Source: Actinopolymorpha singaporensis (GTDB taxonomy: Bacteria; Actinomycetota; Actinomycetes; Propionibacteriales; Actinopolymorphaceae). From it: a stretch of 64,000 nt of DNA. Of this stretch, positions 20,585-51,471 are shown piece by piece (position 1 is the first letter of the stretch; every line of letters starts with the position of its first letter). The position numbers and the translations under genes are program-made. The DNA is taken from contig NZ_LT629732.1 in NCBI RefSeq assembly GCF_900104745.1, positions 1,550,001-1,614,000 of the forward strand, read 5' to 3'. The notes beneath the pieces are model-generated. The model did not search any database. It saw only the letters and a program-made list of their open reading frames with translations, and was not told where the DNA came from.

Positions 20585-22509
20585 TCAGGTCAGGCCCTTC
20601 GCGGCCGCCCACTGCTTCGCGACCTCCCACAGGTGGCTGTCGTCAGCGGTGCCGGGGTTGGGGTCCGGCTTCGGGCCGGGGTCTGGTGGCGGGACCAGGG
20701 CCCAGGTCGGCACGGTGACGTCACCCTGCTGGGACAACAGCCACTTCAGGTCGGCGGACTTCAGGTAGCCGATCCCGTCGACTCCCCAGCTCGTACCCCA
20801 GGAGTTGGTGAGGGTGTAGGTGCTGGTGTCCACGTCCAGCCCGTTCACCACGAGTTCGTGCCCACCGGCGATCCCGGAGGAGCGGTCGACCGGGATCAGT
20901 CCCTCGGAGTCGGGCTCGAACATGCTGTTAAGCCACGGAATACCGATCATGACCGGCGCCGACTGCAGCGCGGCGTTCATCGCGTCCAGGCTGAACGCGT
21001 GCTGGTACGACGTGGCCAACTCCAGAGCCTTCAGCGCCTTGGCCACACCCAGCCCGGACGATCCGGTGTCGTCGGGCGGGTAACTACCGGGGAACTCGTC
21101 CAGCTGAGTCGCCAGCGAGTACAGGCGTACGGCGAAGTCCTCGTCCAGGGGGTACGAACCCGCGGTGAAGGTTCCGTGGGACGCGGCGGCTGCCGCCGCG
21201 GTGATGTCGACCTTCACCAGACCCTGCCGCGCCGTGGAGTCGGTGCCGACGAGTCCGGTGGCGGCGTTTCCCGTGCAGTTGTGAACGCCGATGCCCTCGG
21301 CGACATACGACTCGTCGCCTTCAACGGAAAGGTTGTAGACAGGCCCCACGTAGTCCTCGACGCGCAGTTCCCGCACCTTACGCCAGACTGCGTCTCCGTC
21401 TCCCGGCATTGCCCAGGTCCGCTCGGCATGGTGACCGTCCATCGTGGCTGCCGCACTGCTGCGGCGCTGTTCTGGGGCGATTTACGCCAGTCGATCACTG
21501 GGTGCCTGCCGGTGGCTTGCGCTATGTCGTACATCGCAAGAGCCAGGTCTCTGCTTATCGTGACACCTTCACGCGAGCCATCACGTCGGTGGTGTCCATC
21601 CCCATCGAGCCAGCCGTCGAGCATGGCCGTCAGGAACTCCTTCGCACCACCCATCAGTGCATCGTGTGGCCTCTTGAGGCCACTGCCGTTGCCACAGAGC
21701 CCGGAGAGCAGCAACGACCAGCCTGTTCCGTGAAGGGTGACATTGATCGAGTTGTTGAGACGATGAGCGATGTGTGCCTCAACTCCCCACACGCCTTTGA
21801 TGAGTTGCGCGGTCTCGGCGACGAGCGTGTCGGCCTCATGCTTTGCGAACGTCCATCGCGCCTTCGAGGCGTCACAGGACCCTTCGGCGAGAAACAGTCC
21901 CAGCAGACGGCCGGTGGGGGCATCGAGCGTGATCTTCTCGGGAAGCGCGTTGGCGTCCAGTTTCAGACCCTTGCGGCCGGGCAACCCGGACCACCGGTTA
22001 CCTCGCGTCAGCCTGTGCGAAGGCTTGGTGACGAACTGTTCCACCGGGACGGACAAGACTGCCCCGTTGAGATACTTGGGAAGCGCGACCTCGTCGCCGA
22101 TGCAAAGCTCACCAGCGGGCACATAGCCACGCGCCGTCAACACGGGATGTTCGCGCGTCAGGCGGAGGTGGGCGTGGCCACGGAGGAGGACGCGCACGAG
22201 CCCGCCTTCCTCGTCTCGCACCATTGTGCGAGTGACGCGGCCGATGTTGCCCTCGGCTGTCAGGACTTCGTCAAGAAGCCTGATGTCCTTGATCGCACAC
22301 TCCCCACCATTGGCGAGGCGGACGCGCGTCTCAGGCGGGAAACAGGACCCGAGGTTGCCCTGGTCAAGGATCCCGATCCGTCTGTCCCAGTGGACGGTCT
22401 TGATGGCGGAACGGGGGAGCACGCCGACCGCGAAGGCCAGCGATCGTTCGTCGTGCTCGACGTTGCGACCGAGCCGAGGATCCTGGCGGTCGTACTCGTA
22501 GAGGTCCAT
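20585..22509 (-). pseudogene. Papain-family (C1) cysteine peptidase interrupted by an intein; frame broken within the intein
   Basis: The host protein begins MDLYEYDRQDPRLGRNVEHD (ATG 22509) and runs to RIGILDQGNLGS, the sequence before the catalytic Cys of C1 peptidases. The Cys and CTGNAATG follow only after a 356-codon intein. The C-terminal host part has the active-site His in IAGGHELVV and Asn in [11 protein letters not shown], then a Pro-rich tail. Spliced length would be about 285 residues, without a signal peptide, so the enzyme is probably cytoplasmic. Near 21385-21440 the reading frame shifts: the N-terminal part of the intein and its last about 40 residues lie in different frames, and one extra base would restore a 641-codon gene. 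No flanking partner suggests a substrate. Confidence 0.85.
21278..22344 (-). mobile_element. Intein with LAGLIDADG homing endonuclease
   Basis: The intein starts with Cys (codon 22344-22342, CFPPETRVRLANGG, block A). Block B contains LRLTREHPVL with the conserved TxxH. The two LAGLIDADG-type endonuclease motifs are LLGLFLAEGS and MLDGWLDGDG. Block F/G is [13 protein letters not shown] and then GIGVHN, followed by Cys as +1 residue. All splicing residues (Cys1, block B His, terminal His-Asn, Cys+1) are present. A one-base frame disruption between the endonuclease and block F would prevent splicing as the sequence stands. Confidence 0.88.
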
Positions 22510-41467: not shown

Positions 41468-42486
41468 TCAGACGAGGAACGCCTCGTCGAGGGCGGAGCA
41501 GCAGGTGCCGACGATCAGCCGGGTGACCACGTAGGGGTCGGCGTTGGCGTTCGGGCGCCGGTCCTCGATGTATCCCTTCTTGTCAACCTCGACCTGCCAC
41601 GGGATGCGGACCGAGGCGCCACGGTTGGAGACGCCGTAGCTGTACTCGTTCCACGGCGCGGTCTCGTGAGCGCCGGTCAGTCGGGCCTCGATGCCTGCGC
41701 CGTACTGCCTGATGTGCTCGCGCGGCCTGTCGTCGCGGCCGAGAGCCTCGCAGGCCTCGATGATCGCGTCGTACCCCGCCCGCATCGCCTTGGTGGAGAA
41801 GTTGGTGTGCGCACCCGCGCCGTTCCAGTCGCCCTTGGCAGGCTTGGGATCCAGGGTTGCGGAGACGCCGAAGTCCTCGGCAGTGCGGTAGAGCAGCCAC
41901 CGTGCGATCCACACCTGGTCGGCGACGTCCAGCGGGTTCAGCGGACCGACCTGGAACTCCCACTGGCCGGGCATGACCTCGGCGTTGATACCGGAGATCG
42001 TCAGGCCTGCGGCCAGGCAGTTGTCGAGGTGCTTCTCGACGATCTCCCGGCCGAAGATCTCGTCCGCTCCTACGCCGCAGTAGTAGCCGCCCTGGGGGCC
42101 GGGTAGCCGGCCTCCGGAAAGCCGAGCGGGCGGGAGCCCTGGAAGAAGGTGTACTCCTGCTCGATGCCGAAGAGCGGCTCCTGGCCCGCGAAACGCTCAG
42201 CCACAGGACGGAGCAGCGCCCGTGTGTTGGATCCGTGAGGCTTGTCGTCGACGGTGAAGACCTCGCAGAGTACGAGAACGGCGCTGCCACCGCGGATGGG
42301 ATCCGGATACGTGGCAACCGGCCTGAGTACGAGGTCGGAGAAGTGGCCCGTGGCCTGGTTGGTGCTCGAACCGTCGAAGCCCCACGTGTCGGGCTCCGCA
42401 CCGTCGCTGATGATCCTGGTCTTCGAGCGCAACTTGGCGGTCGGCTCCGTACCATCGATCCAGATGTACTCGGCCTTGTAGCTCAC
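41468..42486 (-). pseudogene. glnII: Glutamine synthetase type II (GSII), frame broken by one base
   Basis: Glutamate-ammonia ligase of the eukaryote-like GSII class. The N-terminal part (ATG 42486) has YIWIDG, TWGFDGSSTNQATG and [11 protein letters not shown]. The C-terminal part has [20 protein letters not shown] and RGASVRIP. In between, the frame breaks at a run of five G (42094-42098 on the plus strand). One more base would restore [17 protein letters not shown], which is conserved in GSII, and give a 339-residue enzyme, the normal GSII length. Everything else is well conserved, so the enzyme was recently functional and may still be if the base is a sequencing error. Upstream and downstream genes are unrelated. 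Confidence 0.9.
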
Positions 42487-42676
42487 GGGGCACCATCCTT
42501 AAGGACGCGGGATCTCGCGGAAGTCGGGTGTCGCCCCAGCGTCACAAGGCGCGGTTTCGCACCAGTTGCCCGTGTGTTACACGCACGTGAACCGAACGCT
42601 CGCCGCGAGTCGCCGGCCTGCGGGACCGACGGCCTACCTGTTGACGAACGCGGCCGTCCCGGCGAAGGTCTGTCAC

Positions 42677-49010: not shown

Positions 49011-51256
49011 TCAACCTCCTGCGGCGAGCTGGGCCGGCAGCGGCCGGGCGTGCAGGACGGTGAGTGCGGACACGGCCCGGGTGAGCGCGACGTACAGCCG
49101 GTTCAGGCCGCGTGGCTCGGCGTCCACGATCGCCGCGGGCTCGACCACGACCACGCCGTCGAACTCCAGACCCTTGGCCAGCGAGGCGGGCACGCACACG
49201 AGCCGGAAGTGCTCCAGCGCGTTCTCGGTGTCACCGAGCATGGCCGGTGTCAACCCGACCTTGTCGAGGGTCGACCGGGTCGGCGCGGCGGTCAGGTGGT
49301 CGAAGACCCGCCTGATCTCGGCGTCGGCGGCGATGACGCCGATCGAGCCGGCGCGGCCGCCCTCCTCGTCGATCCGCAGGCAGGCTTGCAGAACGTCCTC
49401 GGCGGCCACCTCGGAAGCGCCGGCCGCGGTGATCTCGAGTCCGCCCGCGGCCCGCCGCAGACTGACGGGCTTGGCCAGGTCGGGCTGCAGGGACGGCAGC
49501 AACCTCGCGGCGTACTCGATGATCGCCGCGGGCACCCGGAAGCCGCGGGTGAGCTCGACGATCTCGGCAGACTCACCCGCCCCGAGCTCGGCCAGGACGC
49601 TCTGCCAGGAGGCGGAGGCGTACGGCGTGGTGGCCTGGGCCAGGTCGCCGAGCACCGTGGCCGTACGGCAACGCCGGCCGAGCGCGCGCAACTGCATCGC
49701 GGACAGGTCCTGCGCCTCGTCGACGACCAGGTGGCCGCGGCGGGGTTCGCGTTCGAGGAGATCGCCCAGCTCGTCGAGGAGGACGAGGTCCGCCTCGGAC
49801 CAGCGGGCCGACTTCACCGAGCGGTACGGCTTGCGCCACTGCAGCGCCTTCTGCTCCTCTGCGGTGAGGTCGTCGCCGGCCGCCTCGGTCAGGAAGCCGG
49901 CATCGGAGAGCAGCCGGTGCAGCACCTGCTCAGGTGAACGCTGCGGCCAGACCTGGTTGAGGATTCGCCGGACCGGGGCCGACCTGGCCAGGGCGTTCTG
50001 GGTCCGGTCGTCGGGCGTTCCGCCTCGTTGTTCCATCCGCAGCAGCACCGCGTGGGCGAGCCGCTGCGCGAGCGTCGTGCGGCCGGGCGCGTAGCGGGTG
50101 GCGGTCTCGACCACCCCCGCGGCGATCTCGCGTACCTCGTAGTCGGGCACCCGGAAGCGGCTCGCGCCCTTGCTGTAGACGAGCGCCTCCACGTCGTCGC
50201 CGACCCCGACACCCGACCACAGGGCCCGCCGCAGCGCCGCCGCCATCCGGGCGTCGCCCTTCACCGTGACCGTGGCGGTCTCCTCCTCGCTCTCGGCCAT
50301 CGGATGGTCGGGGTAGTAGCGGCGGATCAGGTCCGGGAACGTCAACTGCTGGACGAAAACCTCACCGAGCGCCGGCAGCACGTGCCGGATGTACTGCAGG
50401 AACGACCGGTTCGGGCCGATGATCGCGATTCCGCCGTCGCGGGCCAGGCGGGTGCGTTCGGCGTAGAGCAGGTAGGCGACCCGGTGCAGGCCGACCGCGG
50501 TCTTGCCGGTGCCCGGCGCTCCCTGCACGCAGATCGTGGTGTCCAGCGGCGCGCGGACCAGCACGTCCTGGTCGGGCTGGATGGTGGCGACGATGTCGCG
50601 CATCGGGCCCGACCGCGGCCGCTCGATCTCCGCGGTCACCAGGTCGGAGAAGCCCTGCGCCGCCGTGGTCTGCGCGCCGCTCACCGGCTCGTCCTCGTAC
50701 GCCGTCACGTCGACGAAGCCGTCGGGCCCGGGCTCTGGGCGAAGCCATGGCGACGGCGTACCAGCACACGTTGGGGATCGGCGGGCCCGGCACGGTAGAA
50801 CGGCATGGCGACCCGCGCCCGCCAGTCGATCACCAGGGGCGTGCCGTCGGGCTCGCGGATGTGGCGGCGGCCGATGTAGATCCGGTCGACGTCGCCGTCG
50901 GGGCCCGGCACGCGCCCGCCGCCGTCGGCGTGGTCGAACACCGCGCCCGGCTCACAGTCCAGGCGCCCGAAGAACAACGGGATCCTCGGCAGGTCCAGCA
51001 GTACCTCGGCGCGGTGCTCGCGCGCCCACTCGTAGAACTTGTTGTCCCAGTAGCTGTCGCTGCCGGAGTTGACGATGGCCGGCGTCTCGGTGTCGGTCAC
51101 CTCGGCATGCATGACTTCCAGCGCGGCCCGGGCGGCTCGCAGGTGCGCGCGTTCGGCGGCCAGTTCCGGATCCACGACGGGCTCGGACGTGGCAGTGAGG
51201 TTCGAGGAGTCGGCAACGTTCGGCGAGGCGGAGGGGGTGGATGGGGCAGAGGGCAT
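49011..51256 (-). pseudogene. HelR-like RNA polymerase-recycling ATPase (HelD/UvrD superfamily), frame broken
   Basis: N-terminal part (51256-50705; ATG with GGAGG seven bases upstream) carries YWDNKFYEWAREH, IYIGRRHIREPDGTPLVIDW and AMPFYRA, typical of actinobacterial HelD/HelR. The motor part continues in another frame with PDGFVDV, EIERPRSGPMRDIVATIQPDQD, Walker A QGAPGTGKTAVGLHRV, Walker B HLVVDEAQDLSAMQLRALGRR and the C-terminal RLYVALTRAVSALTVLH. One added C near 50724-50732 would restore a single 748-residue protein. In characterised species HelR removes stalled RNA polymerase and contributes to rifampicin tolerance. No RAE-type upstream element was found. Confidence 0.88.
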
Positions 51257-51471
51257 GAAGGAGCCTCCACGATGGTTGTCAGGCTCTCGTCAGCAGTGGG
51301 CGGCGCGGGCCCCCGCTCCAGGGCCGCCTTCGAAGTGGCGGCGCAACCGGCTCGGTTCGGTCCCTGCTCTCCGGCACTACTGTCCGTACGACAAGCCATC
51401 GCACGTTACCAGCGGGCACCGAGGAGCGGAACCCGTTTTCCCGGCGCTGCCCGACCGGCCGGGATTCCGGG

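Follow-up and report, generated by a model that had tools for sequence, protein, structure and literature searches.

A probable mobile class 1 LAGLIDADG intein in the active-site codons of a phage-type C1 peptidase gene of Actinopolymorpha

Introduction

Class 1 inteins have a Cys or Ser at position 1, the motif TxxH in block B, a penultimate His, and a terminal Asn, and they are followed by a Cys, Ser, or Thr at +1. PMC5050341 agrees with this residue rule and supplies phage examples of inteins in active sites. The hosts it describes, the mycobacteriophage TerL, TOPRIM, and Cas4/RecB-like proteins, are nucleic-acid enzymes, unlike the peptidase considered here, and the only protease mentioned in that text appears in a reference title, on the ClpP intein of Chlamydomonas eugametos. 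Two further papers report that inteins favor active sites in general (PMC3359363 and PMC5874633) and are known mainly from enzymes of DNA metabolism (PMC5874633). In the former, native inteins lie nearer to active sites than other Cys, Ser, or Thr positions do, at a mean of 8.3 versus 21.1 Å.

The locus described here lies on the minus strand of a 64,000-nucleotide stretch of the Actinopolymorpha singaporensis chromosome (the window) and is the gene of a C1 (papain-type) peptidase, whose two exteins (285 aa when joined) are split by an intein. It is very probable that this is a mobile class 1 LAGLIDADG intein inserted in the active-site codons of a phage-type C1 peptidase gene. In a literature search that left most subscription journals and InBase outside, no intein in a C1 peptidase was recognized among the matches listed, as far as their available text goes, and to that extent the original prediction of an undescribed host family and position stands.

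The intein and its junctions

Is the insert truly an intein? Translation agrees with the coordinates and junctions first proposed (DQGNLGS, then Cys through GVHN, then Cys), and the splicing blocks lie where they had been read (Table 1). Read directly, the insert starts CFPP and ends GVHN, and the residue right after it is the Cys of CTGNAATG. Cys1, the block B motif TREH, the penultimate His, the terminal Asn, and a Cys at +1, that is, all the class 1 residues, are present. With 32.3 bits, the insert clears the 15.6-bit cut-off of TIGR01443, a profile of intein C termini, which at an E value of 0.001 has this single match in the whole genome (one contig, 6.40 Mb). Among 396 genomes from the phylum, only the window's own matches a degenerate junction pattern. 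This score and this pattern rule out a chance match. The end residues, block B, the TIGR01443 match, and the exact insertion relative to an empty site (see below) all bear out the identification as an intein.

Table 1. Coordinates of the protease gene, its intein, and HNH-type inteins at the same site in viral contigs
Feature	Position	Strand	Description	Basis
Protease gene	20585..22509	-	Start ATG at 22509, stop at 20585	Translation
N-extein	22345..22509	-	55 aa, ends in oxyanion motif DQGNLGS; Gln codon 22360-22362	Translation
Intein	21278..22344	-	1067 nt; class 1 signature (Cys1, block B TREH, terminal His-Asn)	
Block A	22306..22344	-	CFPPETRVRLANG, contains Cys1	Direct reading
Block B	22126..22167	-	LRLTREHPVLTARG, Thr and His	Direct reading
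First LAGLIDADG motif	21871..21909	-	Within RLLGLFLAEGSCD	PF14528, 16.5 bits, below cut-off of 22.5
Second LAGLIDADG motif	21589..21636	-	Within FLTAMLDGWLDGDGHH	By eye
Frame break	21393..21426	-	After endonuclease motifs, before block F; placed at about 21426 by L057 and about 21393 by L058	Three-frame comparison, two intact relatives
C-terminal splicing blocks from F on	21278..21346	-		TIGR01443
C-extein	20588..21277	-	230 aa; first residue is the putative catalytic Cys, codon 21275-21277	
Catalytic His (putative)	20858-20860	-	In C-extein	33-row alignment; cathepsin L alignment of empty orthologue
Catalytic Asn (putative)	20804-20806	-	In C-extein	33-row alignment; cathepsin L alignment of empty orthologue
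HNH-type intein locus, L138	4779-6782			
HNH-type intein locus, L140	4854-6800			
HNH-type intein locus, L110	4046-6031	-		
HNH-type intein locus, L078	2545-4452			

Two other intein profiles stay below their cut-offs on the split window frames (TIGR01445, 19.2 bits against 24.5; PF14890, 27.6 against 35.8), partly because the frame is split. In two intact relatives from viral contigs, L057 and L058, PF14890 exceeds its cut-off, at 44.0 and 38.2 bits, respectively. By eye, the two LAGLIDADG motifs keep their acidic residues (LLGLFLAEG and AMLDGWLDGDG), and PF14528, which falls short in the window at 16.5 bits, reaches 28.3 bits in L058. The base composition of the intein also differs from that of the C-extein, with a GC content of 63% versus 68% and a GC3 of 0.73 versus 0.89.

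The host protease

The mature protease contains one Cys, the +1 residue, and the same is true of three orthologues from the genus (4 of 4 proteins). In an alignment of 33 homologues, one of which lacks its N-terminal half, conservation is complete for His195 and at least 90% for Asn213 and for the motif Asp-Gln-Gly-Asn-Leu-Gly-Ser-Cys, which the search pattern favored. The oxyanion Gln and the catalytic Cys, His, and Asn thus named appear in papain order. The peptidase profile PF00112 barely passes its cut-off, with 21.4 bits against 20.7, and covers profile positions 124-199 only. The empty orthologue of Actinopolymorpha rutila aligns with Toxoplasma cathepsin L (3f75; E value, 3.3e-5) in a stretch that runs through the GSC, His, and Asn-Ser-Trp-Gly motifs.

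What about the fold? The model of the A. rutila orthologue has a pLDDT of 72.9, and its best match in the PDB is 3ois (E value, 5.8e-10), with modest TM-scores of 0.3 to 0.6; by title, the 50 PDB rows listed are papain-type cysteine proteases or mite allergens of the papain family. Against viral models, the peptidase of Streptomyces phage Shady comes first (8.2e-23). A model of the L057 precursor was too poor for use (pLDDT, 62.2; pTM, 0.40). The profile match, the order of the four residues, and the papain fold predicted for the empty orthologue uphold the proposed papain-family (C1) host. The splice acceptor had been predicted to be the protease's own catalytic Cys, and the sole Cys and the conserved motif columns agree: as far as sequence can tell, the +1 residue is the catalytic Cys. 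A catalytic Cys elsewhere in the protease is ruled out, the mature protein having a single one. The mature protease also contains a linker rich in Pro and ends in a short tail (window 20588-20690), which the C-terminal end of the L057 protease (..QAWLTAKGL) resembles.

Empty sites in relatives

Among eight genomes of the family that were searched, the protease is whole and uninterrupted in three of the same genus (G002, G004, and G005), that of the window's own genome is split, another genome (G006) has only a weak match of 37 residues, and G001, G003, and G007 have no protease match. The A. rutila gene is that of G004. All three empty genes are syntenic with the window gene, and the spliced window protease is 87 to 89% identical to their products. 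The shared neighbors, named in part by Pfam, are presumably beta-lactamase, nitroreductase-like, APH-like, and SGNH-like genes. DNA matches to the three loci stop at 21277 and at 22343, and the two matches overlap by 2 subject bases, TG, which are common to the first codon of the intein and the +1 Cys codon. These ends and this overlap indicate that an empty site received the insert.

The intein is therefore present in one of the four genus copies and is not kept across the host lineage. None was found in 48 genomic protease loci checked, all uninterrupted; these include the three genus genes, with that of G004 counted twice, and most were found with patterns containing DQGNLGSC, a string that also arises where an intein starts with Cys. 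In the phage collection, 54 records match a spliced phage relative (a query with one stray Cys), and 49 of them cover at least 80% of it, each in one place. The comparison of actinobacterial homologues that had been proposed with the original prediction thus gives empty sites in all three syntenic genus genes.

A break in the reading frame

As assembled, the gene cannot be read through, the 1067 nt of the intein falling one nucleotide short of a whole number of codons. In place of one frame spanning both exteins, the window has two open frames that overlap: the frame of the N-terminal piece continues to 21214, and the second open frame has an ATG at 21442, upstream of block F. In all six viral contigs described below, the frame of the intein is intact. 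Is the break a property of the chromosome or of its assembly? When window genes were compared with the three genus relatives for frame integrity, single- and multi-frame genes numbered 31 and 4 (G002), 29 and 4 (G005), and 28 and 6 (G004), with the protease among the multi-frame rows each time. Multi-frame rows against one relative only number 1, 1, and 3. Two further genes are split against all three relatives, by one missing base each: a glutamine synthetase gene (41471-42525, minus strand; deletion at about 42090-42105) and a UvrD-type helicase gene (49017-51295, minus strand; deletion at about 50723-50736). Ka/Ks values for protease pairs that include the window copy are 0.32, 0.22, and 0.19, and those for the other pairs are 0.26, 0.28, and 0.30, so that no relaxed constraint on the window copy is seen among these relatives. 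Given the two other one-base deletions and the lack of excess Ka/Ks, an assembly error is the likelier cause, and we regard the break as probably a sequencing error rather than a real loss.

A real break would leave a dead gene, with a truncated N-extein and the endonuclease made and no protease. This is how the assembly reads, and the break falls after the endonuclease motifs, where an endonuclease domain could still be made. It is nevertheless unlikely, since two other one-base deletions within 64 kb suggest assembly error and the Ka/Ks values of the window pairs are about equal to the others. Could the break instead have produced a split intein, with two pieces splicing in trans and the second starting at 21442? 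Both pieces are open, each with its own splicing blocks, and the ATG is available; however, no ribosome-binding site is evident by eye upstream of it, the frame of the N-terminal piece runs well past it, and an error is the simpler explanation, making trans-splicing extremely improbable. A programmed frameshift was rejected, as no slippery site was recognized by eye in the stretch around the break.

Inteins at the same cysteine in viral contigs

Inteins at exactly the catalytic Cys occur in six IMG/VR viral contigs. A scan with the N-terminal part of the window intein gave two loci: L057, a 668-aa open frame with a 360-aa intein and the junctions DQGSIGS/intein/CTGNEE, and L058, with DQGQLGS/intein/CTANAT. 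Two more, L078 and L110, came from profile and junction-pattern scans, and a scan with an HNH-type intein as the query brought L138 and L140. Because the scans were targeted, the counts do not show how frequent such inteins are; the HNH-type scan returned 78 loci, for a minority of which the motif script printed a junction, so same-site inteins may be missed. The inteins fall into two lineages. (i) The LAGLIDADG lineage comprises those of the window, L057, and L058, which are 47 to 54% identical. (ii) The HNH lineage comprises those of L078, L110, L138, and L140, which are 37 to 59% identical; L078 has a match to the HNH endonuclease family phrog_7545 (1.8e-11), while PF13392 (HNH_3) scores 20.2 bits there, below its cut-off of 24.8, and the other three are placed by similarity to L078. 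Only short stretches match between the lineages.

Pattern searches of the viral contigs gave mixed returns. All three stretches with VHNCT[AG]NA are true inteins, and of four with GVHNCT[AG]N, two are real, both already found, and two are chance. Protease sites with CWAF or CV[AG] (9 and 12 stretches) yielded no inteins in proteases. The window intein's N-terminal part has no match in the phage and plasmid collections at an E value of 1e-5. Records matching the HNH query numbered 13 among phages and 20 among plasmids; of the 3 phage records and 1 plasmid record opened, three encode C1 peptidases without interruption and one has an intein in a different host. A further genome scan gave matches in 69 of 394 genomes, among which only the window's own was judged, and a script run on five of the rest gave no output. 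L234 and L235 are empty relatives of L057 in viral contigs.

Relatives of the HNH-type inteins were also seen in other viral hosts (L143, L166, L178, and L200), of which we take that of L143 to be GyrB-like and that of L200 to be NrdD-like from the flanking residues. A related intein in Bacillus phage SP-15 (L229, 1674-3293), annotated "hypothetical protein," ends HN/CVTGGIGLGKST, and its junction adjoins what looks by eye like a P-loop motif.

The catalytic Cys is a recurrent target, not an accident. With two unrelated lineages at one residue, the target seems to be set by the site rather than by the element.

The phage setting of the protease

Why call the protease phage type? Residues 12-246 of the A. 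rutila orthologue match phrog_16701 ("peptidase"; 9e-52), and virion genes lie near the protease in three of the six viral contigs: L057, where a tail terminator immediately precedes it and a head-tail adaptor is more distant; L058, with a head maturation protease; and L110, with a head-tail adaptor. Neighbors with a named match in L138 and L140 are a guanylate kinase and a thymidylate synthase, and the one neighbor tested in L078 has no match; with no virion match beside them, the viral label of these three rests mainly on IMG/VR. In L140, what is presumably a thymidylate synthase gene lies in two pieces around a free-standing HNH-like frame (728-2807), with phrog_160 on the second piece; it looks as though another homing element had interrupted the gene. 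The empty protease has no match to a defence family. In Arthrobacter phage Mufasa8, the gene immediately before an empty homologue encodes a membrane protein, and lysin A is nearby, a setting from which a lysis-related role of the phage protease might be guessed.

Movement between protease subfamilies

The L057 protease is 45 to 47% identical to that of the window. The L058 protease is 23 to 24% identical to those two and 37 to 42% identical to the HNH hosts, and its intein is 47 to 49% identical to those of the window and L057. Judged by these identities, the hosts of the LAGLIDADG intein belong to two distant protease subfamilies. A tree of 59 protease rows, which does not separate gain from loss, needs at least 5 changes of intein state, and a quick tree test, weakened by the flagged long branch of the L058 protease, rejects a clade uniting the three LAGLIDADG hosts (p-AU, 2.2e-6). 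The rejection suggests that the intein crossed protease subfamilies, and the identity pattern, the tree, and the contrast in GC and GC3 fit a horizontally moving element. The suggestion that the intein is mobile is further favored by its absence from the three syntenic genus genes and the 48 loci.

Splicing and the question of a switch

How might splicing proceed? By established class 1 chemistry, Cys1 would attack the N-terminal junction to form a thioester with the Ser of the N-extein, which would then pass to the thiol of the +1 Cys, the protease nucleophile, as a branched thioester. Cyclization of the terminal Asn would free the intein, and an S-N shift would join Ser to Cys. The branched thioester would be chemically like the later acyl-enzyme. 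The precursor is predicted to be inactive until splicing, with the oxyanion Gln loop and the nucleophile apart, because the intein stands between the Ser and the Cys of the GS-C motif. As had been proposed, splicing would thus assemble the active site. The site may be preferred because its DNA is conserved enough for homing and it supplies the splicing Cys.

The further idea that the intein is an evolved activity switch, its splicing timed by, for example, redox chemistry on Cys1 and the +1 Cys, found no supporting result here and is very unlikely. In its favor, the location of the insert is in itself enough to make the precursor a zymogen, the site is shared by two intein lineages that are unrelated, and PMC3359363 argues that blocking of precursor activity may matter. 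However, homing together with the need for a +1 nucleophile gives the same pattern, and the patchy distribution (absent from the three syntenic genus genes and from all 48 loci) counts against a switch as the main role. An inactive precursor is a consequence of the site and does not establish a regulated switch. One speculation, quite unlikely but broader, is that unrelated inteins have settled independently at the nucleophilic Cys of phage-type C1 peptidases as at a hot spot, and that in phages the intein makes the protease a self-activating zymogen with timed release, possibly through redox control of the thiol that later carries out proteolysis.

At this locus, one thiol would serve two reactions in one polypeptide, the transesterification of splicing and then peptide hydrolysis. 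The sole Cys as splice acceptor would give a clean read-out (no splice, no protease), and the locus offers a system for asking whether active-site inteins are parasites, switches, or both.

Comparison with known systems

The closest system is L057 (IMG/VR 3300031754_000001), which has an intein of the same LAGLIDADG lineage at the same catalytic Cys, 52 to 54% identical to the open N-terminal part of the window intein; unlike the window gene, it has an intact frame and stands directly behind a tail terminator in a phage contig. Among 391 genomes of the order, a search with that N-terminal part gave matches in 12 others, and the two best, which were read, are the DnaE-type inteins L060 and L061, the nearest relatives found there, at 28 to 30% identity. 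Their host, unlike the window's peptidase, is presumably a DNA polymerase III alpha-like protein. The HNH-type inteins of L078, L110, L138, and L140 share the insertion point in C1 peptidases and the class 1 end residues with the window intein but show no similarity to it beyond short stretches (best E value, 0.005). Finally, the phrog_16701 peptidases of phages, such as Mufasa8 gp26 (annotated as a cysteine protease), belong to the same host family as the window protease but have an empty site.
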